Shown here in pieces: positions 3,031 to 30,441 of a stretch of DNA of 38,997 nt (its first letter is position 1; each line of letters opens with the position of its first letter). The stretch spans positions 1-38,997 of IMG/VR virus record IMGVR_UViG_3300031329_000012; one strand, given 5' to 3'. The notes beneath the pieces are model-generated. The model saw only the letters and a list, made by a program, of their open reading frames with translations, did no database searches and was not told the origin of the DNA. The DNA is from a virus. The position numbers were made by a program, and so were the translations under genes.

Positions 3031-5649
3031 TCATTTTACCTTAAAAACCTCCGCAGCGTTACCAGTGGGTACTATCTGGGCGCCCTGCGCTTCTTGATAG
3101 ACTCGCGCCACTTCTGCAGCGCCTTGAATATTGCAGTTTATGTGGCCCCTACGAACAAAGAGGCGCGGCTTTTTATTATCATCCATGGGTATGGAATTAT
3201 TAACGCGCCCATCAATTAGCGCTGGATGCCACACGTAGCCGAGTGATTCGAGTAGGTCCTTACGCTTGTTATGTGGGATAGTACGTGTGGCATGTATGGC
3301 GTATAGCAGGCGCTCAACGGCCACAGAGGAGACCCATCCACCCGCAAAGCCCGGCCGCCCTTCTTCGATTGCTTCTAGTATCTCTTGCTCTACACCGCCA
3401 AGCGACGCGAATATCGCTTCGTCTGTGCTAGAAGTCTGCGGCGCTCTATGGCATGCACCCGCTGGGTTTAATTCATTAGGTATAGCGTAATCCGCCAGGT
3501 AATTGGCGACAATCGCATAACCGTCACCTTTGAGCCAAGTGTATATTTTTGGAAAATAAGACCCGTCCATACCGTCGCGTATGATGTCAGTGTCTAACTG
3601 CTGGGCGCAATAAAAAACCGCAAAGCGACGGTCGTTTCTTGTTTTACGTATGCCATCCTTATAATTGCTATTTAGTATAAAATTGGCAAAATTATCCCCC
3701 ATTACCTGCGCGACTTGCATGGCGCGCTTAGCTAATCGGTCGTTTGTTATCATTGGTTTCAGAACTTCGATTATCTCTTTTTTATGATCAGGAACGTATA
3801 CGTCTTCTATTCCTATGAACAATTTATTAAATAGCCATTCGTTGAATTTTTCTGATATTTCGCTGGCCGGTGGCAAGTGCGTGTATTTATCCCCGATAGC
3901 GAACGCCACACACCTCGTAAACAGCGTTTTACCATTGCCCTCAACGCCTTGTATCAGTGGCGCCCATTGAAATTTAATGCCTTTGTGCTGTATGCACGCG
4001 GCCATGTATGCTAGTAGTATTCCGCGATCATGCTCACTTGGTAGCACTTTGGCCAGATGTAGCAAAAACGGCGCGGGATCCCCTTCAAGGCGCTTAGTTT
4101 CTATGGGTATATAGGCGTTAAGTAGCAGCCTTCCCTCCTCTTTAAGTAAAGCGCCCGGTGCTTCAAGTGGCCTAAACGCCATGGCTTCGGCTTTGGGATA
4201 CCTAACGATTTGTGACTCTGTGAACGCTTCCCAGGCCTTGCGAGTGACTTTATCCCCACCATCGTCCAGTTGAAAGGTGTAACCACCGTATGTGGCGTTA
4301 AATTGTTCAGATTTAAGCAGGGCACCGTTAGGTGTGAAAACTTTATGTATTTCTTGTATATAAACGCAACCCTTAAAATATTCTACTTGCTGAGTTGCGC
4401 CTAGATATTGATAACCAGATAATATCTCCGGTTCTGTTTTATCTTCGGCCAATGGCGCGGCTGCGGTTTCTACTGGTGTCAACGTTTTACGCAATTCTTC
4501 GGTGGTTTTGTCTTTGTTATCTAGCCAAAATTTGGCGGTAGGCACTTTGCAAAACATTTCTATTAATTCAACTTCGCCGAAACATTCTTGTAACTTTTGC
4601 GCTCTGACGTTGACAGCGTAGTCTCTTTGTGGGTCACTGTTTGCGCGTAGTTTTACAGCGCCAAATTGTTGCGCTATAGCGTCATCTACTTGCTGGACTG
4701 AGTAAACAACGTCTTGAAGCGATACGGCCCGCGTGATAGTCCTCATAAGGTAATCTTCGCGGTCCCATTTGTCGCGCACCATGGCCGACATTTCCATGAG
4801 CTTTTGAATGCGTTCGCAATTATTACCCGTCCAAAATGCTAAATGTTGGGCGAGGGCTGCATCAGCACTACTGCCGTCATAAGCGCGCTGACCTTCTGTG
4901 TCTGGATATGCTTTTCCAAGGGCGTCCTCGTCACATTCCCATAAGTGTTTGAAAGTGGCCCTATCGCCAAAAATAGCACCACCACCACCCGTCTTAAGCG
5001 CGCGTTCGATAAGTTCGTCGTCGTCGTCTGTACCCGTCCAACTTTCCACCGGTTCGGTTGTCCAGTCTTGGTCCTTAGTTGCTGATTTAGGCGCGAAGTA
5101 GCTCTCTATGACATCGCGTAAATGCGCAGAGTGGTCATAACCGGCGGACCCAATAGTATTATCACCTGTTAAGGCAACGAAGCGGCCTTCTGTGTAGAGC
5201 TCTAAGCCTAACGGTATGTTTTTACATGAGTGATCGGGTGGCGCGCCTGAGTATTGACTGAATACGTGCAAACCGCGGCCCGATTGAGACACCTCAACCG
5301 CTGCGCTAGGCAAACGCGCTAATATATCCATTGCAACGCTAGACCAGGTTATATTGTCCGCGTTTAAACATTTATCTAAGTCCACAAAGAAAAAAGGGTC
5401 ATTAGCAGTAAATAGGAACCCCACGCCATACTCAGGTCCGCAAAGCGCAGCCATTGCAATGGCACTGCCGGCGTCTGTCGTACTGCTTGGGTCTTTTTGC
5501 CAGTCAGCGCCTTTCGGGTAAGACAAGCATGTATGCGGGCTTATGGGAAACTTTTTATTGCTTTTAGTATCTTCATCCCAAACTAACTTATACAAACAAA
5601 ACTGCTTATACGCTGCTAGGGGCTTCAGCGCCTCGGGTAAATTTTGCAT
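3031..5649 (-). CDS. Primase-helicase (prim-pol-like N-terminus, D5-type helicase C-terminus)
   Basis: An 872-residue replication protein. The N-terminal region carries prim-pol-type signatures: FFFVDLDKC at about residues 86-94 and SGRGLHVF at about 122-130, as in phage and plasmid bifunctional primase/polymerase domains. The C-terminal part has a P-loop (GVEGNGKT, about 567-574) and a Walker B-like LFIGIEDVY (about 608-616), as in superfamily 3 D5-type phage helicases. The start is at an ATG three bases after the stop codon of the tandem-HTH regulator. It presumably opens the replication fork and primes synthesis for the family A polymerase of the opposite operon. The two-domain assignment is solid by motif; exact domain borders are not. 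Confidence 0.85.
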   Translation of the reverse strand: MQNLPEALKPLAAYKQFCLYKLVWDEDTKSNKKFPISPHTCLSYPKGADWQKDPSSTTDAGSAIAMAALCGPEYGVGFLFTANDPFFFVDLDKCLNADNITWSSVAMDILARLPSAAVEVSQSGRGLHVFSQYSGAPPDHSCKNIPLGLELYTEGRFVALTGDNTIGSAGYDHSAHLRDVIESYFAPKSATKDQDWTTEPVESWTGTDDDDELIERALKTGGGGAIFGDRATFKHLWECDEDALGKAYPDTEGQRAYDGSSADAALAQHLAFWTGNNCERIQKLMEMSAMVRDKWDREDYLMRTITRAVSLQDVVYSVQQVDDAIAQQFGAVKLRANSDPQRDYAVNVRAQKLQECFGEVELIEMFCKVPTAKFWLDNKDKTTEELRKTLTPVETAAAPLAEDKTEPEILSGYQYLGATQQVEYFKGCVYIQEIHKVFTPNGALLKSEQFNATYGGYTFQLDDGGDKVTRKAWEAFTESQIVRYPKAEAMAFRPLEAPGALLKEEGRLLLNAYIPIETKRLEGDPAPFLLHLAKVLPSEHDRGILLAYMAACIQHKGIKFQWAPLIQGVEGNGKTLFTRCVAFAIGDKYTHLPPASEISEKFNEWLFNKLFIGIEDVYVPDHKKEIIEVLKPMITNDRLAKRAMQVAQVMGDNFANFILNSNYKDGIRKTRNDRRFAVFYCAQQLDTDIIRDGMDGSYFPKIYTWLKGDGYAIVANYLADYAIPNELNPAGACHRAPQTSSTDEAIFASLGGVEQEILEAIEEGRPGFAGGWVSSVAVERLLYAIHATRTIPHNKRKDLLESLGYVWHPALIDGRVNNSIPMDDNKKPRLFVRRGHINCNIQGAAEVARVYQEAQGAQIVPTGNAAEVFKVK

Positions 5650-13621: not shown

Positions 13622-13993
13622 ATGGCTGTTGATGTGTCCCTGGTGTGCGCCGAACTCGAGGCTATAGCCTGCATTTTTGCTGCATTTGAAAACCCAGATA
13701 CAGCCGTCAAGTTGTTGGGCGACAAAGCTTGTTTTGAACAAGGTGATTTAGTTTACAGAACATCCCTTTTTAAGTGTAAATTGAAGCTGGTTATGCACCC
13801 GAGCGAGCAGGGCATACTTGATAGGGTTGAAAGGTTAAAAAAGACCGCTCGAAAACAATCGCGAGCTTTTGGTGGTAATAAAGCACGGAAAAGATCGTTA
13901 AATCGTGCCCGGTACAGTAAAGCCGTGGCCCAATCTTTTTTAGACGATGGCGAGATTGAGAATCATAAAACTTACGTCGAGTCCTACACATGA
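13622..13993 (+). CDS. Hypothetical protein upstream of DNA polymerase, 123 aa
   Basis: A 123-residue protein. The N-terminal half is mixed hydrophobic with three cysteines (VCAELEAIACIFAAFENP); the C-terminal half is very basic (KKTARKQSRAFGGNKARKR), fitting nucleic-acid contact. Its stop overlaps the ATG of DNA polymerase (ATGA), so the two are co-translated. The family is not recognised; a polymerase accessory role is inferred from coupling only. Confidence 0.65.
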   Translation: MAVDVSLVCAELEAIACIFAAFENPDTAVKLLGDKACFEQGDLVYRTSLFKCKLKLVMHPSEQGILDRVERLKKTARKQSRAFGGNKARKRSLNRARYSKAVAQSFLDDGEIENHKTYVESYT

Positions 13994-16212
13994 ACGCTTC
14001 GACGCTCTTAGCTGGCCACCGCTTACCCGCCGGGTGGGGCTTTTCGACCGTGCTCCCAGACTTAGACTTCGAGACGTACAGCGAGGCGGGTTATACCTGG
14101 GACAATGAGCTCAACAAATGGGTGTCGATAACTAAATCACCCCCGCATGGTCTAGGCGCGGTAGGCGCGTCCGCATACTCTGAGCATCCATCGACGGAAG
14201 TGCTTAGCTTGGCGTACGATTTAAAAGATGGCCAAGGCGCAAGAATGTGGATTCCATCCATGCCTCCACCTGTTGAACTATTCGAACATATTGCCAAACT
14301 CGGGCTACTAGAAGCCCACAACAGCGCTTTCGAGTGGTACATTTGGGCGAACGTCTGTCATGCTCGCATGGGTTGGCCTGCGCTCCCATATTGGCTTTTG
14401 CGTGACTCTATGGCCAAAGCGCGGGCGTTCTCATTGCCTGGCAAATTAGCGAAGCTGGCCGAAGTACTAAAAGTGTCGGATCAGAAAATAGATGACGGCA
14501 AACGCTTAATTAATAAATTAACAAAACCGCGTAATCCAACAAAAAAAGACCCTAGAACGCGCATAAGACCAGAAGAAGAACCCGTCGATGGGCCTAAATT
14601 TTACGCCTACAACGTCGGCGACATCAAAGCAGAATCCGCCGTGTCTGCTCTTATGCCGGACTTAAGTACCGATGAACTAGAATTATGGCTGTTAGACCAA
14701 TGTATCAATTTACGGGGCGTTCACATTGACTCTGACGGTCTTAATAATTGCCTAGCGATAGTCAAGCAAGCATTTGAGCAGTACACGGCTGAACTAATAA
14801 GTATAACCGATGGCCGGGTACAAAGCGCGGGCGAGATTGGCAAGATAATAAACTGGCTAGGCGCTAACGGGCTACACATAAGTAGCATTGACGCCGACCA
14901 TGTAGAGGAAGCCCTAAAGCGTGAAAACTTGCCAGCCCATGCCCGCCGTGTTTTAGAAATACGCGCATTAATAGGCGCGGCCAGTGTTAAAAAACTGTTT
15001 GCCATAGACCGCCGCCGCTCCGCCGATGGGCGCCTGCGAGACTTATTTGCGTTCTGTGGCGCCGACCGAACGGGCCGATTTGCAGGCCGAGGACCGCAAC
15101 CGCAAAACTTGCCAAACAGCGGGCCAGAGGTTGTGCGCTGCAAATGCGATCGCCATTACGGGTCACATTTACAAGAATGTCCTTGGTGTCGTTCTCCTAA
15201 AGCTTTTGCAGAATCTGCTGAATGGGGCATAGACGCAGTAAATGACGCGCTCACAGTCATAGCGTCGAAAGACCTTAAGATGGTAGAGCATTACTTCGGG
15301 GACGCTGTTGCGGCCGTTTCGGGCTGCCTGCGCGGCTTGTTTTCCGCTGCGCCTGGTTGCGACTTTCTTTGCTCCGATTATTCGGCTATTGAAGCCGTGG
15401 TCTTAGCTATGTTGTCGGGCGAGCAATGGCGAATAGACGTTTTTCGCACGCATGGCAAAATTTACGAAATGTCAGCCGCTAAAATATCCGGCGTGCCGTT
15501 CGAAGAATTGATCCGACACAAAGAAGAAACGGGGGAACATCACCCGCTACGTAAAAAAGGGAAAGTAAACGAGCTCGCTTTAGGGTTTCAAGGAGGCTAC
15601 GGTGCTTGCGTTGCTTTTGGCGCTGACAAGTACATGAATGAAGAAGAGATCCGCGAGTCAATCAAATCGTGGCGCATAGAATCGCCGATGATAGTTAAAT
15701 TTTGGTACGGATTACAAGACGCGGCCACCGCTGCAGTGCAAAACCCCGGCACTTGTTACGCGTATAACGGGTTAACTTATGGCGTGAAAGACGATGTTTT
15801 ATACTGCCAGTTATTGAGTAGCCGTAAATTATCTTATCATCAGCCGAGGCTACACCCGGACGTTACGCCCTGGGGTAAACAGGTTCTAAAACTTACGTAT
15901 ATGGGCTGGAATTCTGACTATAAAAAAGGGCCTCAAGGCTGGATGCGAATGGACACTTACGGCGGCAAGCTATGCGAGAACGTCGTCCAAGCAATAGCAC
16001 GGGACATATTAACGTTTGCGATGAAAAACATCGAGCGCGCCGGGTACGCTATCGCGCTGCATGTACACGATGAAATTGTTAGCGAAGTAGTAGAGGGCAC
16101 GGGCTCAATAGAAGAATTCGAGCGAATTATGGCAACAATGCCAACATGGGCCTCTAATTGGCCAATACGCGCCGCCGGTGGCTGGCGTGGTAAACGATAT
16201 AGGAAGGATTAA
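13990..16212 (+). CDS. Family A DNA polymerase with 3'-5' exonuclease-like domain and Cys4 insert
   Basis: A 740-residue replicative polymerase of the PolA/T7 type. An exonuclease-like N-terminus has DxE in DLDFET (about residues 24-29), NSAFE at 111-115 (Glu in place of the usual Asp) and YNVGD at 207-211. Polymerase motif A is DYSAIE (about 463-468), motif B KGKVNELALGFQGGYG (about 523-538), and motif C HDEIV (about 693-697). Between the RTGRF...QNLP element and motif A lies an insert with Cys384, Cys386, Cys397 and Cys400, a probable zinc site not present in E. coli Pol I. The ATG overlaps the upstream stop. It has no 5'-nuclease domain. Confidence 0.95.
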   Translation: MNASTLLAGHRLPAGWGFSTVLPDLDFETYSEAGYTWDNELNKWVSITKSPPHGLGAVGASAYSEHPSTEVLSLAYDLKDGQGARMWIPSMPPPVELFEHIAKLGLLEAHNSAFEWYIWANVCHARMGWPALPYWLLRDSMAKARAFSLPGKLAKLAEVLKVSDQKIDDGKRLINKLTKPRNPTKKDPRTRIRPEEEPVDGPKFYAYNVGDIKAESAVSALMPDLSTDELELWLLDQCINLRGVHIDSDGLNNCLAIVKQAFEQYTAELISITDGRVQSAGEIGKIINWLGANGLHISSIDADHVEEALKRENLPAHARRVLEIRALIGAASVKKLFAIDRRRSADGRLRDLFAFCGADRTGRFAGRGPQPQNLPNSGPEVVRCKCDRHYGSHLQECPWCRSPKAFAESAEWGIDAVNDALTVIASKDLKMVEHYFGDAVAAVSGCLRGLFSAAPGCDFLCSDYSAIEAVVLAMLSGEQWRIDVFRTHGKIYEMSAAKISGVPFEELIRHKEETGEHHPLRKKGKVNELALGFQGGYGACVAFGADKYMNEEEIRESIKSWRIESPMIVKFWYGLQDAATAAVQNPGTCYAYNGLTYGVKDDVLYCQLLSSRKLSYHQPRLHPDVTPWGKQVLKLTYMGWNSDYKKGPQGWMRMDTYGGKLCENVVQAIARDILTFAMKNIERAGYAIALHVHDEIVSEVVEGTGSIEEFERIMATMPTWASNWPIRAAGGWRGKRYRKD

Positions 16213-24734: not shown

Positions 24735-25962
24735 TTTCGCGCCCCCTCGGGACTTCGAGTATTTCCGAGCCGGTCAAGCTGTTTGAATTTATGAAAAAAT
24801 CGAGCTGGTCGTCTACACTTCCGTAGAATTCTGCGACTAAATTTATAATAGTTCGGTCGCGATCTAATATGACGCGACGCTCCTGTAACAATGTAAATGA
24901 AATTTCTACTAAAAACCCCGCCGTGAGCGCGACGGCTTCTTGTAATTGCTGGTATGCTTCGCCGGTGTCAATCTCTGCAAGCGCTGCGAAATTCGCATCA
25001 CGCCAATTAGTCACTTCGTCCAGCTGTGTTAGTATTAATTCAGCCGCTTCTATTGCGCTGGTTTTAGTCGTAAACTGAGTATTGACCACAGAAACGACGG
25101 AGCCCGTGACATAAGTAGACGCGTATAGATCATTAGTGTGAAACTCGTTTGAGCTGCTAGCGTTAAAACTCGGCGTAACGACGGCGTTGTCACCCGTTAT
25201 AATACCATCAGCAAGGTTTTTGTATGCCTCCAAACGGTCCGTTATATTGATCGCGGCCCTAGCAGGCGCCTGCAATAGTATGGTTGTTTGAAAAGCTAGC
25301 GTCAGCGGTTCGGCTATGAGTATGTCAATACCCTGATTTATAGAATCCCGCACCGCGTTAAATTGGGTCCTCACATTATCTTGCGCATTAGCGACGGATT
25401 GCAAGCCCGTGCTAGCTGAGTCTAATAACGATTGATAGTCGTTTTTAAATGTCACCGCGTCGACAGCATTATCTAGCGTTGTTACGTTCTCGAATTCTTG
25501 CGCAACCGAATTGTTGTATTCTTCAACCGCGTTTAGTACTGAACTCGCGGGATCACTTTGGGACGTCGGATAAATCAACCCTATTGTTTCAAAGAATGTG
25601 ATCTCGAATACGGCTTGATTAGCGCCTGTTTTTAGATCGTCGCGGCGGGTAATAGTGCCGAACGGGACCACATCGATAACACCGTAAATTGGATGCTCTA
25701 ACATACCCGTCCCACGCTCCAACAATGCCGCTTCGAAAGCTTCGGCTTTGATGTCATAATCGCCGCCCCAGAAGAATACCCGAAGCGGATACTTTCGCCC
25801 CGTGTTTCCGAGGTCTTGAACATAACTGCCATTCGCGTCGGGAAACTCGAAACTCGTGGTTTTCTTGTCAACCGTTTTACTGACATTCTCATAATCAAAA
25901 GTCAACCTATCGCCTGAGGGCGAATTGTAGGCCGCTTCTCTAATGCGATCAGTCCAGGCCAT
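24718..25962 (-). CDS. DNA circularisation N-domain protein (Mu gp43-like)
   Basis: The start is ATG 25962 (MAWTDRIREAAYNSP), overlapping the upstream stop as TAATG; 414 residues. The N-terminal 130 residues match the 'DNA circularisation' domain of Mu gp43-type baseplate proteins (FEFPDANGSYVQDLG, then YPLRVFFWGGDYD). The rest is long-helical and Ala-rich. In Mu-type tails this gene follows the tape measure directly; here four extra genes intervene. Confidence 0.88.
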   Translation of the reverse strand: MAWTDRIREAAYNSPSGDRLTFDYENVSKTVDKKTTSFEFPDANGSYVQDLGNTGRKYPLRVFFWGGDYDIKAEAFEAALLERGTGMLEHPIYGVIDVVPFGTITRRDDLKTGANQAVFEITFFETIGLIYPTSQSDPASSVLNAVEEYNNSVAQEFENVTTLDNAVDAVTFKNDYQSLLDSASTGLQSVANAQDNVRTQFNAVRDSINQGIDILIAEPLTLAFQTTILLQAPARAAINITDRLEAYKNLADGIITGDNAVVTPSFNASSSNEFHTNDLYASTYVTGSVVSVVNTQFTTKTSAIEAAELILTQLDEVTNWRDANFAALAEIDTGEAYQQLQEAVALTAGFLVEISFTLLQERRVILDRDRTIINLVAEFYGSVDDQLDFFINSNSLTGSEILEVPRGREIVYYI

Positions 25963-26312
25963 TAGCAAACGACCTTGAGTTTTATTTCGGTCTTGTATCC
26001 TTCGCCGACTATAACTTCTTTTTGTGGCTCTGCTGCCGTTATATAACTAATTTTAGGGTAATATATCGGCGGCGAACTTTTCAATTCAAGCTGACCAAAT
26101 TTTACACGCACGATATCATTTGAAAACGTGACGTCGTCGGTCGTGCTGTCGATGGTAACGCCTGATCCGTTATTAATTAGCGGCCCACACACTTCCACCG
26201 TGACGACCGTAGCGCCCAATGCTGTTAAGTCCACAACTGCGCCATCACTATCGACCACATTGAATACGGTTTCATTGCCCGAGCCTAGCGCGGCGGTTAG
26301 TGAAATTAACAT
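25962..26312 (-). CDS. Hypothetical tail-cassette protein, 116 aa
   Basis: A 116-residue, beta-rich protein (VDLTALGATVVTVEVCGPLI...). Its composition suits a small structural domain such as an immunoglobulin-like or fibre-base fold, but no family is recognised. Its stop overlaps the gp43-like ATG. It lies 6 bases after the 126-residue gene and belongs to the same cassette. Confidence 0.65.
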   Translation of the reverse strand: MLISLTAALGSGNETVFNVVDSDGAVVDLTALGATVVTVEVCGPLINNGSGVTIDSTTDDVTFSNDIVRVKFGQLELKSSPPIYYPKISYITAAEPQKEVIVGEGYKTEIKLKVVC

Positions 26313-26318
26313 GACCGT

Positions 26319-26699
26319 TTACGTCGCTGGTTGCGTTATTTGCAGCGAGTTAATGACCGAATCTTCGCCGGATACGTAACTCACACTTGATAAGACTAGT
26401 TCCTGTGCTCCCGTGCCGACTGTTACCTGCATCGTCTTGGTTGTTAGCACCAAGCGCGCAAAACTAGCGGTTCCTGTCGCTGCTATCGTTGCGTCAGCTA
26501 TTGCATTCGCGATGATCACACCTGATGACGACGCGCCCCAGCCTGTTAATGTGTGGACCGCTAATTCTGTGTTACTTGATAGAGCGGCGTTACCGCTTGC
26601 GGGCGGCGTTCCGTCGTAAATCGTTAGCACTGCGGTTGTGAAATCCGTACCGATGTTGTCGGCCTGCGAATCTACTGCACTTGTGTTTAATGATGGCAT
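26319..26699 (-). CDS. Hypothetical tail-cassette protein, 126 aa
   Basis: A 126-residue, Ser/Thr/Ala-rich protein (MPSLNTSAVDSQADNIGTDF...), almost certainly all-beta, with composition like decoration or fibre-shaft proteins. The family is not recognised. It sits four bases after the repeat protein gene and before the 116-residue gene. Confidence 0.65.
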   Translation of the reverse strand: MPSLNTSAVDSQADNIGTDFTTAVLTIYDGTPPASGNAALSSNTELAVHTLTGWGASSSGVIIANAIADATIAATGTASFARLVLTTKTMQVTVGTGAQELVLSSVSYVSGEDSVINSLQITQPAT

Positions 26700-26703
26700 G
26701 ATC

Positions 26704-28302
26704 TTAAATCCTTATTGTAAAACTGTTAGGTGTAGTTTCTATTATTTTGGCGGTATTATCAATCTGTATTGTAAAATCGCTGATAACTTGCCCCGCCGTT
26801 GCGTTGCCAGCAAATACTAATGAGGGCAATGTTATCGCACCCGACACGGTCACTTCGCTAGTGGAATCCGTCGCGCTGCCTTGAAATACTAACGATGGCA
26901 GCGTTATTGCGCCCGCTGCAGTTACTTCGCTGGTGCTGTCGCTAGCGTTGCCTTGGAATACTAACGATGGCAATGTGATCGCGCCTGTGGCTGTCAGCTC
27001 GCTAGTTGTATCTGTTGCGCTACCCGCGAACACCAATGACGGCAACGTAATGTCACCGGCTGCAGTTACTTGTCCGACCTCAGAGGTTGAAGCGCTACCC
27101 GCGAACACCAATGATGGCAATGTTATGTCACCGGCTGCGGTCACTTCGCTGGTTGTATCTGTTGCGGTTCCAGCAAATACCAACGACGGCAATGTTATGT
27201 CACCGGCTGCGGTCACTTCGCTGGTTGTATCTGTTGCGGTTCCAGCAAATACCAACGACGGCAATGTTATGTCACCGGCTGCGGTAACTTCGCTTGTTGA
27301 ATCTGTTGCGTTACCCGCGAACACCAATGAGGGCAGAGTGATATCACCGGCTGCGGTTACTTCGCTGGTTGAATCTGTTGCGCTACCCGCGAACACCAAC
27401 GAGGGCAGGGTGATATCACCGGCCGCGGTCACTTCGCTTGTTGAATCTGTTGCGTTACCCGCGAACACCAACGACGGTAATGTTATGTCACCAGCTGCGG
27501 TTACTTCGCTTGTTGAATCTGTTGCGCTACCCGCGAACACCAATGATGGCAACGTTATATCACCGGCTGCGGTAACTTCGCTTGTTGAATCTGTTGCGCT
27601 ACCCGCGAACACCAATGATGGCAACGTTATATCACCGGCTGCAGTGATTTCGCTTGTTGAATCTGTTGCGCTACCCGCGAATACCAACGACGGTAATGTT
27701 ATTGCTCCGTCTGCCGTTATTGCAGTCGAGGTGGCTTCGGCTATCTCTAAAGCAATAGAGTAATCGAAACCAAAATCAGTCTTTTCATATGTGGGCGAGG
27801 TGTCTTGACTTGGAGAGTGCGCAAAAGATATATCACCCACCATATCCGTTTTTGTGTATCCACTTTCTTCAACAAAATCAGTGTCGTCTGTCGTACTGAA
27901 AATAAAAGCCTGATTAGCGGAGGCCCCAAAAGCAGATAATGAAAATGTCCTGACTGAAGACCCGTATTTCTCTTTTGTTTCAAATTGGGGGATAGCCGCA
28001 GATAAAGAACTTACATCAGCGCCTTGCACTTTTACGATGTTGGCTATTAATACTGTATTACCAGACCATGTGATGTCTATGCTGCTTGTTGTCGTACTGG
28101 TAGCTATTGCCGCAAACAAGTCAATCCCACCTGATATACTGCCGATTCTGGTAAACGTTCCATGCTCTGTTGATACGGTGCTTAACTCTTTTTTATTACA
28201 CATGAGTAGCAATAAATCATCAGCGTCAGACGTAAAGCTGGGTATCGTTGCCGAGTTTCCGTATTGTTGTTTCCCCGACGGATTTGTATACGTTAAAGCC
28301 AC
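26704..28302 (-). CDS. Virion-associated protein with thirteen 24-residue repeats
   Basis: A 532-residue protein from a GTG start (28302) that overlaps the end of the sulfotransferase-like gene by 10 bases; the RBS is weak, suggesting translational coupling. Residues 1-190 form a beta-rich head (MALTYTNPSGKQQYGNSATI...). Then come thirteen copies of a 24-residue unit, TAAGDITLPSLVFAG plus nine residues such as SATDSTSEV, with one 25-residue and one short final variant. A 27-residue tail follows. Repeats are rich in Ser, Thr and Ala and contain no Tyr, Cys or Lys. The order suggests an elongated shaft or a host-surface binding stalk on the tail. Two adjacent copies (27121-27192, 27193-27264) are identical at DNA level. 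Confidence 0.8.
   Translation of the reverse strand: MALTYTNPSGKQQYGNSATIPSFTSDADDLLLLMCNKKELSTVSTEHGTFTRIGSISGGIDLFAAIATSTTTSSIDITWSGNTVLIANIVKVQGADVSSLSAAIPQFETKEKYGSSVRTFSLSAFGASANQAFIFSTTDDTDFVEESGYTKTDMVGDISFAHSPSQDTSPTYEKTDFGFDYSIALEIAEATSTAITADGAITLPSLVFAGSATDSTSEITAAGDITLPSLVFAGSATDSTSEVTAAGDITLPSLVFAGSATDSTSEVTAAGDITLPSLVFAGNATDSTSEVTAAGDITLPSLVFAGSATDSTSEVTAAGDITLPSLVFAGNATDSTSEVTAAGDITLPSLVFAGTATDTTSEVTAAGDITLPSLVFAGTATDTTSEVTAAGDITLPSLVFAGSASTSEVGQVTAAGDITLPSLVFAGSATDTTSELTATGAITLPSLVFQGNASDSTSEVTAAGAITLPSLVFQGSATDSTSEVTVSGAITLPSLVFAGNATAGQVISDFTIQIDNTAKIIETTPNSFTIRI
26785..27722. repeat. Tandem 72-bp coding repeats
   Basis: Thirteen tandem copies of a 72-bp unit inside the repeat protein gene. 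Copies at 27121-27192 and 27193-27264 are identical. Most others differ at a few third-codon positions. Because 72 is a multiple of three, gain or loss of a unit keeps the frame, so copy number may vary between relatives. Confidence 0.9.
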
Positions 28303-28781
28303 GCTAAATCATCCACATACAAGACGTTTAACTCATCTTCTTTGTAGTCACTGCATTTCAGCCTATAAACAATATTATTTGTACATGGTATTGCGCCCGT
28401 TAAATTGTATATAGTTTCAGATAATTCAGATAATGGTCTGACCTCAGTTGGTAAGAATAAACCGTTAAGAGTCATTTGTTCGACTTGAGAATTCCAGTGG
28501 TAATTTTTATTAGCAAGCGCGTAATCTATAAACGACTCATAACTGCCCAACGGAATAAAGTCAGCCCCATCGAATCCTATTTTTCTTTGTTTTAACATAC
28601 AAAAGAAACTGTAACAGCTTTTTATTCTGTCAATAGGATCTCTAATAAACATAATTCTTTTACTGTAATCTAGGCATTCATCAAGCGACATAATAGTGTT
28701 TTTTACATCCCCAAGCGTGCTACTCCCGCATTTCGGAATGTAGCTAAATAAAGCATCTGAGCCTTTTAATTTTACGAACAT
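28293..28781 (-). CDS. Compact sulfotransferase-like protein
   Basis: A 162-residue protein with both PAPS-binding signatures of sulfotransferases. The N-terminal loop SYIPKCGSSTLG (about residues 13-24) matches the 5'-phosphosulfate loop. FIRDPIDRIKSCY (about 45-57) matches the 3'-phosphate motif with its Arg and Ser. A C-terminal YKEDELNVLYVDD resembles the closing helix of the Sulfotransfer_2 family. Usual members are 200-300 residues, so this is a minimal version, about 20 residues shorter than I would expect between the motifs. GC content is about 34 % by hand count of several lines, against roughly 46-50 % around it. It lies just after the tape measure gene (13-base gap) and overlaps the repeat protein gene. 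Substrate unknown. Confidence 0.75.
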   Translation of the reverse strand: MFVKLKGSDALFSYIPKCGSSTLGDVKNTIMSLDECLDYSKRIMFIRDPIDRIKSCYSFFCMLKQRKIGFDGADFIPLGSYESFIDYALANKNYHWNSQVEQMTLNGLFLPTEVRPLSELSETIYNLTGAIPCTNNIVYRLKCSDYKEDELNVLYVDDLAWL

Positions 28782-28794
28782 AATCTACCCTTAT

Positions 28795-30441
28795 TTAAAA
28801 AGCGCCCGAAGGTTGCAAAGACAACCCAGGCCCCATGCTGCCGCCTGTAACTTCTGCGCGCCCTGTTTCGTCGCGGATCGTAACTTCGGCCGAGCTGCTT
28901 GTCCGTGACTCTTCTATCGTGCGCGCGGTGCGCTCTTGTGGACTTATTATTTGTGGCCCGGTTCTTGCATTACCTGCGCCCGCTGAGCCGTCGGGTGCGC
29001 CGGTCTCTGCTTCGTCTGATCCGAAGCCAAAAAAGTCGCCGACGCCGCTGCCGATGTTGCTAATAGTATTCACAATGTCCGCCGCTGCCCCTTTTACTCT
29101 ATCAACAACACTCATTATTTTATTCATGGCGCTGTCGAATATGTCCACAACTCCGGTCCAAAGGTCTGCGAAAAATTCTTTTATCGGCTCCCAATGTTTA
29201 AATATGAGCGCAGCCGCACCGATTAGCCAGCCAATAGGACCCATTAGTAACGCAATGCCTGCGACTAATACGCTCATACTATCACCGCTATTTTTGAACG
29301 CGGTTACTAGGCTTTTGAAAACAGTGATGACTTTGTTTACCACTGCGTCCGCAAATTCGAGAACAGCGGATTTTATTTCGTCCCACCAATAAACAACGGC
29401 GATGATGGCCGCTATTAATAAAAATATACCCAAAACAAGTAATGCGATAGGCCCGCCCATCAACGTCATAGCAAGGCTCGCGACCGTCATAACTAACACC
29501 ACTGTTTTAAGCGCTGCAGATAAGGCAAAAAATACAAGTAAACCTATGCCTATCTTTTTCATAACGTCGACAATATCGTTAAAATTATCGACCAGTTGGC
29601 GCCCGTACTTAAATATGTCCTCCGCAACGATGTCTTTATTTGAAAGCGCCCACTCCCTAAAGCTTTTTGTTAATCTTGTTAGCAACGGAAGCAACGGCAG
29701 TATAACGGTCTGCATAAACCCTGTTAACGTCTTTTTAAGCGCGTTTGAAGCGTCGACATACGCCTCGGCTGCTATCGCCTGCCCCATGGTTATGACACCG
29801 TTCTCGCGTTGCTGTAGGCGTAACTTTCTAATCGCCTCAGCGCTGTTGTCTGCGATATTAACAAGCGCAAGACCTGAACGGCTAAACGCTGCGTTCGCAA
29901 GCGCTGCTTTTTCAGTAGCACTGTCCGCCGAACGAATGGCATCAATCATAATTTCGAAAGATTGGCCGACATTGTCCGACGCTTTAAGCTGTGCAAGTAG
30001 TTCGGGGTTTATTTTTTTTAGGCCTGAAACTAGCGGGCCCATATCGCCTGCGGCTTCACCTAATCGCTTTGAAAATGCGCCGAGTGAATTACTTAATAAC
30101 TCGTTTGTTACGCCACTTTGTTCTGCTACAAATTGAAATTCTTGAAGGTCTTTTATTGGGAATTGAAGTCGCCTTGACTCTTTGGCTAGTTTATCGGCTC
30201 TGTTAGCTACGGAGTCTATAGCTAAAGTTAAGCCCGCGACCGCTGCGGTAGCTACTACCGCGCCCCGTCTTAATCCGCGCCCCAAGCCGCTGGCCATGCG
30301 GCCGACTGCTCGATTAGCTGTGCGCAAACCCCTAGCAATGGACCGTGTCATTTTTCTAATGCGGTTCTGCATACGGGAAACAGGCGCGGATATACGGTCG
30401 ACCGCTTTGAATACTGCTTCAACACTAAAACGGCCCGCCAT
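28795..30441 (-). CDS. Tail tape measure protein
   Basis: A 548-residue protein. It has a basic N-terminus (VEAVFKAVDRISAPVSRMQNR, typical of Mu/P2-type tape measures), a Gly/Arg-rich segment, long helices, two hydrophobic blocks (about residues 295-350 and 393-418) and a Gly/Ser/Thr-rich C-terminus. It sets tail length and is ejected early during infection. It follows the frameshifted chaperone as usual. Its length is short for the class, which predicts a short contractile tail. Confidence 0.92.
   Translation of the reverse strand: MAGRFSVEAVFKAVDRISAPVSRMQNRIRKMTRSIARGLRTANRAVGRMASGLGRGLRRGAVVATAAVAGLTLAIDSVANRADKLAKESRRLQFPIKDLQEFQFVAEQSGVTNELLSNSLGAFSKRLGEAAGDMGPLVSGLKKINPELLAQLKASDNVGQSFEIMIDAIRSADSATEKAALANAAFSRSGLALVNIADNSAEAIRKLRLQQRENGVITMGQAIAAEAYVDASNALKKTLTGFMQTVILPLLPLLTRLTKSFREWALSNKDIVAEDIFKYGRQLVDNFNDIVDVMKKIGIGLLVFFALSAALKTVVLVMTVASLAMTLMGGPIALLVLGIFLLIAAIIAVVYWWDEIKSAVLEFADAVVNKVITVFKSLVTAFKNSGDSMSVLVAGIALLMGPIGWLIGAAALIFKHWEPIKEFFADLWTGVVDIFDSAMNKIMSVVDRVKGAAADIVNTISNIGSGVGDFFGFGSDEAETGAPDGSAGAGNARTGPQIISPQERTARTIEESRTSSSAEVTIRDETGRAEVTGGSMGPGLSLQPSGAF

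Follow-up and report, generated by a model that had tools for sequence, protein, structure and literature searches.

What does a sulfotransferase gene do within the tail operon of a phage, and how did it come to be there? The window, meaning the whole stretch of DNA that was analysed, comes from a virus and is 38,997 bases long; its genes include those for sheath, tube, tape measure, hub and baseplate. Its sheath protein is closest to that of Shewanella phage SppYZU01 (75% identity) and is 65% identical to that of Oceanospirillum phage PD0307, the type of Oceanospimyovirus, and the window phage is an SppYZU01-like myovirus. The same phage encodes both an NrS-1-polymerase-like protein (3031-5649; PF22763) and a family A DNA polymerase (13990-16212; PF00476), and it carries 11.6 copies of a perfect 10-bp repeat, GCCGCTTGTA, at 1064-1179, inside a short ORF close to the end of the window.

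A sulfotransferase gene between the tape measure and the baseplate hub

An initial annotation had described a small sulfotransferase encoded between the tape measure and the baseplate genes. This position was confirmed, with the genes arranged as follows.

28795..30441, minus strand: tail tape measure protein, 548 aa (phrog_8125, E=3e-43)
28293..28781, minus strand: compact Sulfotransfer_2 gene, P0001, 162 aa (identified by Pfam, a viral HMM, a structure model and an alignment)
26704..28302, minus strand: predicted virion protein, 532 aa, which carries about eleven 24-aa repeats; its N-terminal domain is variable, and its C-terminal end is kept in relatives
26319..26699, minus strand: virion structural protein (phrog_3758)
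25962..26312, minus strand: small conserved slot protein, 116 aa
24718..25968, minus strand: baseplate hub (phrog_184, E=1e-57)

The sulfotransferase ORF, whose strand had not been stated before, is read from 28781 to 28293 on the minus strand. It starts 13 bp after the tape-measure stop, and its own stop is overlapped by 10 bp by the GTG start of the 532-aa repeat protein, the first of three small virion-type genes that precede the hub. The 24-aa repeats of that protein correspond to a 72-bp tandem array at 26825-27702 (SEVTAAGDITLPSLVFAGSATDST); a related contig, L003, differs in this array, so its copy number or register may vary. A search for promoters and terminators around the sulfotransferase gene gave no strong signal for either. 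The gene is 100% identical in two further IMG/VR contigs, in which the junction of tape measure, sulfotransferase and repeat protein is the same, and misassembly of the junction was thereby ruled out. With zero differences in the gene among the three contigs, dN/dS says nothing on selection.

Family membership and conserved residues

Sequence comparisons identify the window protein as a genuine, compact member of the Sulfotransfer_2 family. The Pfam model (PF03567) matched it with E=2.1e-5 and 25.2 bits, above the gathering cut-off of 22, and a search of the whole record agreed. We also built an HMM from eight viral sulfotransferases, leaving the query out (two of the eight, L043 and L051, being one and the same). 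With this HMM the window protein ranked first at E=1.3e-5 and the remaining window ORFs scored above 5, whereas the best of 2000 shuffled sequences of the same composition reached E=0.26, which rules out a chance occurrence of the motifs. Both PAPS-binding motifs were found as they had been quoted in the initial annotation, together with a third conserved motif.

28710..28745, minus strand: 5'-phosphosulfate-binding loop SYIPKCGSSTLG, residues 13-24 (K17 in 16/17 homologues)
28611..28649, minus strand: 3'-phosphate-binding motif FIRDPIDRIKSCY, residues 45-57 (R47 and S55 in 17/17)
28485..28499, minus strand: HWNSQ motif (H95 in 14/17 and Q99 in 13/17 homologues)

The 5' loop reads PKCGSST, with K17 as its invariant lysine, the 3'-phosphate-binding pair R47/S55 is spaced by eight residues, and H95 of HWNSQ is the sole histidine of the protein. 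To gather homologues, degenerate DNA patterns of both motifs were searched, followed by tblastn from the homologues so obtained. This recovered viral relatives (L038, L041, L043, L044, L052, L053, CBW1004C-Prop1, DLP6, Mosig and Bakedbeans) and, outside viruses, bacterial plasmid proteins. In the resulting 17-sequence alignment, K17, R47, P49, R52, S55 and D158 are common to 16-17 sequences, and N135 and Y155, like Q99, are found in 13. The conservation of the motif residues is partly a product of how the sequences were selected, since the relatives were gathered partly through the two motifs; that of H95, Q99, N135, Y155 and D158 is free of such selection. The nearest homologue, L052, has 157 aa and is 28% identical over nearly its full length. 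Searches with the window protein itself gave nothing by tblastn against phages and plasmids even at E=1, no match by sequence in the PDB, and no sulfotransferase family in PHROGs or NCBIfam. Scans of genome contigs with the protein and with an alignment returned no relatives, and hence no donor.

The family model describes enzymes of the heparan sulfate 2-O-sulfotransferase and chondroitin sulfotransferase type, with bacterial and viral members. The window protein shares its landmarks, namely the PAPS-loop PKxxSST, RDPxxRxxSxY, HxxxQ and a C-terminal YxxD. It differs in being about 90 positions shorter (162 aa against 252 positions) and in having an inter-motif segment of only about 24 residues, without the usual histidine.

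An AlphaFold model made from an alignment of eight sequences reached a pLDDT of 72.9 and a pTM of 0.69. An earlier model from five sequences (pLDDT 46), with which a fold search was meaningless, had been dropped in its favour. In BFVD the best fold match was gp5.1 of Roseobacter phage SIO1 (E=1.7e-4, probability 1.0), and the matches ranked 2–8 were seven proteins that are all annotated as sulfotransferases. Matches in the PDB were for the most part sulfotransferases as well, none at E<0.001. The profile search and the structure prediction that the initial annotation had proposed as checks thus both turned out in favour of a sulfotransferase, the fold result being consistent with the assignment rather than independent of it, because the alignment behind the model was made of sulfotransferases. 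Taken together, a PAPS-binding Sulfotransfer_2 fold is almost certain for the window protein.

A lineage-specific insertion in a variable slot

Comparison with related phages shows that the sulfotransferase gene is a lineage-specific insertion. The proposed survey of relatives found a Sulfotransfer_2 gene in none of 23 related phage records, some of which are fragments; in these records the tape measure-to-hub slot was empty, held other cargo or was not covered. In L011 the site is uninterrupted and the tape measure runs directly into a 297-aa virion-type gene, which upholds the earlier view that the gene was acquired horizontally. L012 has an 86-aa remnant in the slot, and in L010 a 129-aa gene (L010:6452-6841), with no Pfam or PHROG match, holds the position that the sulfotransferase has in the window. 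The virion-type proteins of the window, L010, L011 and L012 have a common C-terminal end, in which TTPNxFTI or TTPNNYTI follows an IQID/IVVD stretch, and their N-terminal ends differ. This pattern indicates that the slot swaps an extra gene together with an adhesin-like domain. The N-terminal domain of the 532-aa repeat protein had no match when searched against phages.

Base composition had likewise been noted as far below that of the neighbouring genes. The sulfotransferase gene has a GC content of 0.348, compared with 0.476 in the window as a whole, and is the lowest of all 489-bp stretches in the 39 kb. At 0.425, the part of the next gene that encodes the N-terminus is low as well, which fits a joint arrival of the two. 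Missing from the 23 relatives and aberrant in GC, the gene has the features by which a moron is recognised.

Related genes beside host-recognition genes

The placement in a tail operon had been thought to be without precedent. This did not hold, as copies in virion operons are also present in CBW1004C-Prop1, SIO1, L041 and L052. In L041, downstream of a tape measure, the copy is flanked by a tail-fibre-like gene and by a probable assembly gene of 172 aa, which resembles tail-fibre-assembly proteins when judged by eye; the L038 locus resembles that of L041. In L052 the copy follows head genes and directly precedes a gene whose 1496-aa product matches beta-helix proteins weakly. The copy of SIO1 lies between the tail fibre genes gp6/gp7 and the terminase, and that of CBW1004C-Prop1 between the major head protein, with which it overlaps, and a head-closure protein. 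As in the window, the L041 and L052 copies have a GC content below that of their surroundings; the CBW1004C-Prop1 and SIO1 copies do not. Copies outside virion operons make up half of the viral homologues examined (DLP6, Mosig, L043, L053 and L044) and lie in replication or glycan regions. Another contig (G025) has two sulfotransferase-like genes in a stretch of about 3 kb (L071:5668-8816), close to a gene for a DNA polymerase.

Compact sulfotransferases thus recur beside tail-fibre and other host-recognition genes in several unrelated phages. Motif or fold, and not context, was the basis on which the loci were collected; the link is suggestive rather than proven, because the loci are a handful and late genes fill much of small phage genomes. 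A literature search, with most subscription papers outside its reach, found no description of this association. As a conjecture that we consider rather doubtful, compact sulfotransferases could form a recurrent receptor-editing cassette, exchanged along with tail fibres and adhesins across unrelated small phages of myo-, sipho- and podovirus-like types. If so, an adhesin would move as one unit with the enzyme by which its glycan receptor is masked or altered.

Proposed role and alternatives

The best explanation of the whole, which we put forward tentatively, is that the gene is a horizontally acquired moron encoding a PAPS-dependent sulfotransferase that acts on a host surface glycan and so alters phage reception. 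The gene would be co-transcribed with the late tail genes and presumably expressed late, and the 10-bp stop/start overlap leads us to propose that its translation is coupled to that of the adhesin-like repeat protein. The window ORFs that were searched included no recognisable gene for PAPS synthesis, from which we infer that PAPS would be drawn from the sulfate-assimilation pathway of the host. In the cytoplasm, sulfate would be moved onto a hydroxyl of a glycan precursor, most likely of a host surface polysaccharide, and the extra negative charge could alter recognition of the glycan and reduce re-adsorption of progeny and of rival phages. A glycan substrate is probable, because the distant bacterial relatives examined mostly adjoin glycosyltransferase, flippase or LicD genes and the copy of Mosig lies among glycosyltransferases. 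The link to host recognition is drawn from the L041, L052 and SIO1 copies, which adjoin fibre or beta-helix genes, and from the window copy, which precedes a virion protein with a variable domain. On balance, the host surface is slightly favoured over the virion as the target.

Sulfation of the virion itself is the main rival to this role. Its target might be, for instance, a glycan carried by the adjoining repeat protein, or some other part of the tail, with an effect on adsorption or stability. Such a role would suit the position of the gene within the tail block, the overlap of its stop with the start of a predicted virion gene and the overlap of the CBW1004C-Prop1 copy with the major head protein gene. 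However, no glycosyltransferase was found among the window ORFs searched, relatives in the family group with cell-surface glycan genes, and the adjacent gene varies from phage to phage (head, tail fibre or beta-helix protein). We consider this reading unlikely.

Both readings call for catalysis, and the window protein is quite probably an active enzyme. In heparan sulfate 2-O-sulfotransferase, a histidine in the segment upstream of the 3' motif serves as the base, and this residue is not universal in the family. The segment with the canonical histidine in longer relatives (HLSLSEM in L041) corresponds to IMSLDEC, without histidine, in the window protein, a pairing read by eye at a place where automatic alignments put gaps variously. 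CBW1004C-Prop1, L043, L044 and L052 also lack the canonical histidine and are all above the Pfam cut-off; it therefore does not define the compact branch. Candidates for the general base are H95 and an acidic residue at 34-38. Less likely still than virion sulfation is a degenerate or PAP-binding-only protein, non-catalytic and kept neutrally or newly arrived. Loss of the canonical histidine segment, a length well below that of the family model and a low GC that fits recent arrival would agree with degeneration, but the ORF is intact in three contigs, every cofactor residue and the conserved HxxxQ motif are retained, and intact relatives are equally compact (157 aa in L052, 176 aa in CBW1004C-Prop1 and 188 aa in SIO1).

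Least likely is action on a small molecule or on some other substrate inside the cell, or a role in modifying nucleotides or DNA: several viral copies lie in replication regions (DLP6, and L043 beside an exonuclease and a glycosyltransferase) and sulfation of phage nucleotides has been mentioned as reported (PMC10829341), but the window copy is in a late tail block away from DNA-modification genes, and PF03567 is a family of carbohydrate type. The window gene by itself is one more member of a known family; what most merits pursuit is that such genes recur next to host-recognition genes in phages that are not related.

Comparison with known systems

Temperate phages carry morons that modify the O-antigen, such as oac of Sf6 and gtr of P22, which alter the surface sugar of the host and so phage reception. 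The logic proposed for the window gene is the same, a host surface sugar changed by a phage gene. The differences are that these morons acetylate or glucosylate rather than sulfate, and that they act in lysogens, whereas no integrase was present among the window ORFs examined.

Marine and other phages are already known to encode sulfotransferases, which recur in lists of phage auxiliary genes and whose function is called unclear (PMC10580990; also PMC8290583). PAPS sulfotransferases of about 200 aa are known from Pelagibacter phage Mosig, Synechococcus phage ACG-2014f and OM43 phages (PMC10580990). The copy of Mosig is in a glycosyltransferase module, unlike the window copy in its tail block, and those of the OM43 phages belong to Sulfotransfer_3 rather than Sulfotransfer_2. 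Closer in form is gp47 of CBW1004C-Prop1 (MZ188970), annotated as a 'sulfotransferase family 2 domain-containing protein', which is as compact as the window protein and shares its short motif spacing and its location in a virion operon. In contrast to the window copy, it lies in the head block and not the tail, shows no GC contrast, and is 25% identical over 52 aa.

SIO1 gp5.1 (AF189021; L072:4688-5254), with PKTATIAI and LIRNPHDWIKSYY as its two sulfotransferase motifs, resembles the window protein in fold, and its gene adjoins tail fibres. Unlike the window protein, it has no significant Pfam match and is unannotated in GenBank, and its sequence similarity to the window protein is limited to the motif. 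These comparisons suggest that short sulfotransferases are overlooked by annotation. Compact sulfotransferases beside host-recognition genes, including that of the cultured phage SIO1, provide a concrete hypothesis and an experimental system.
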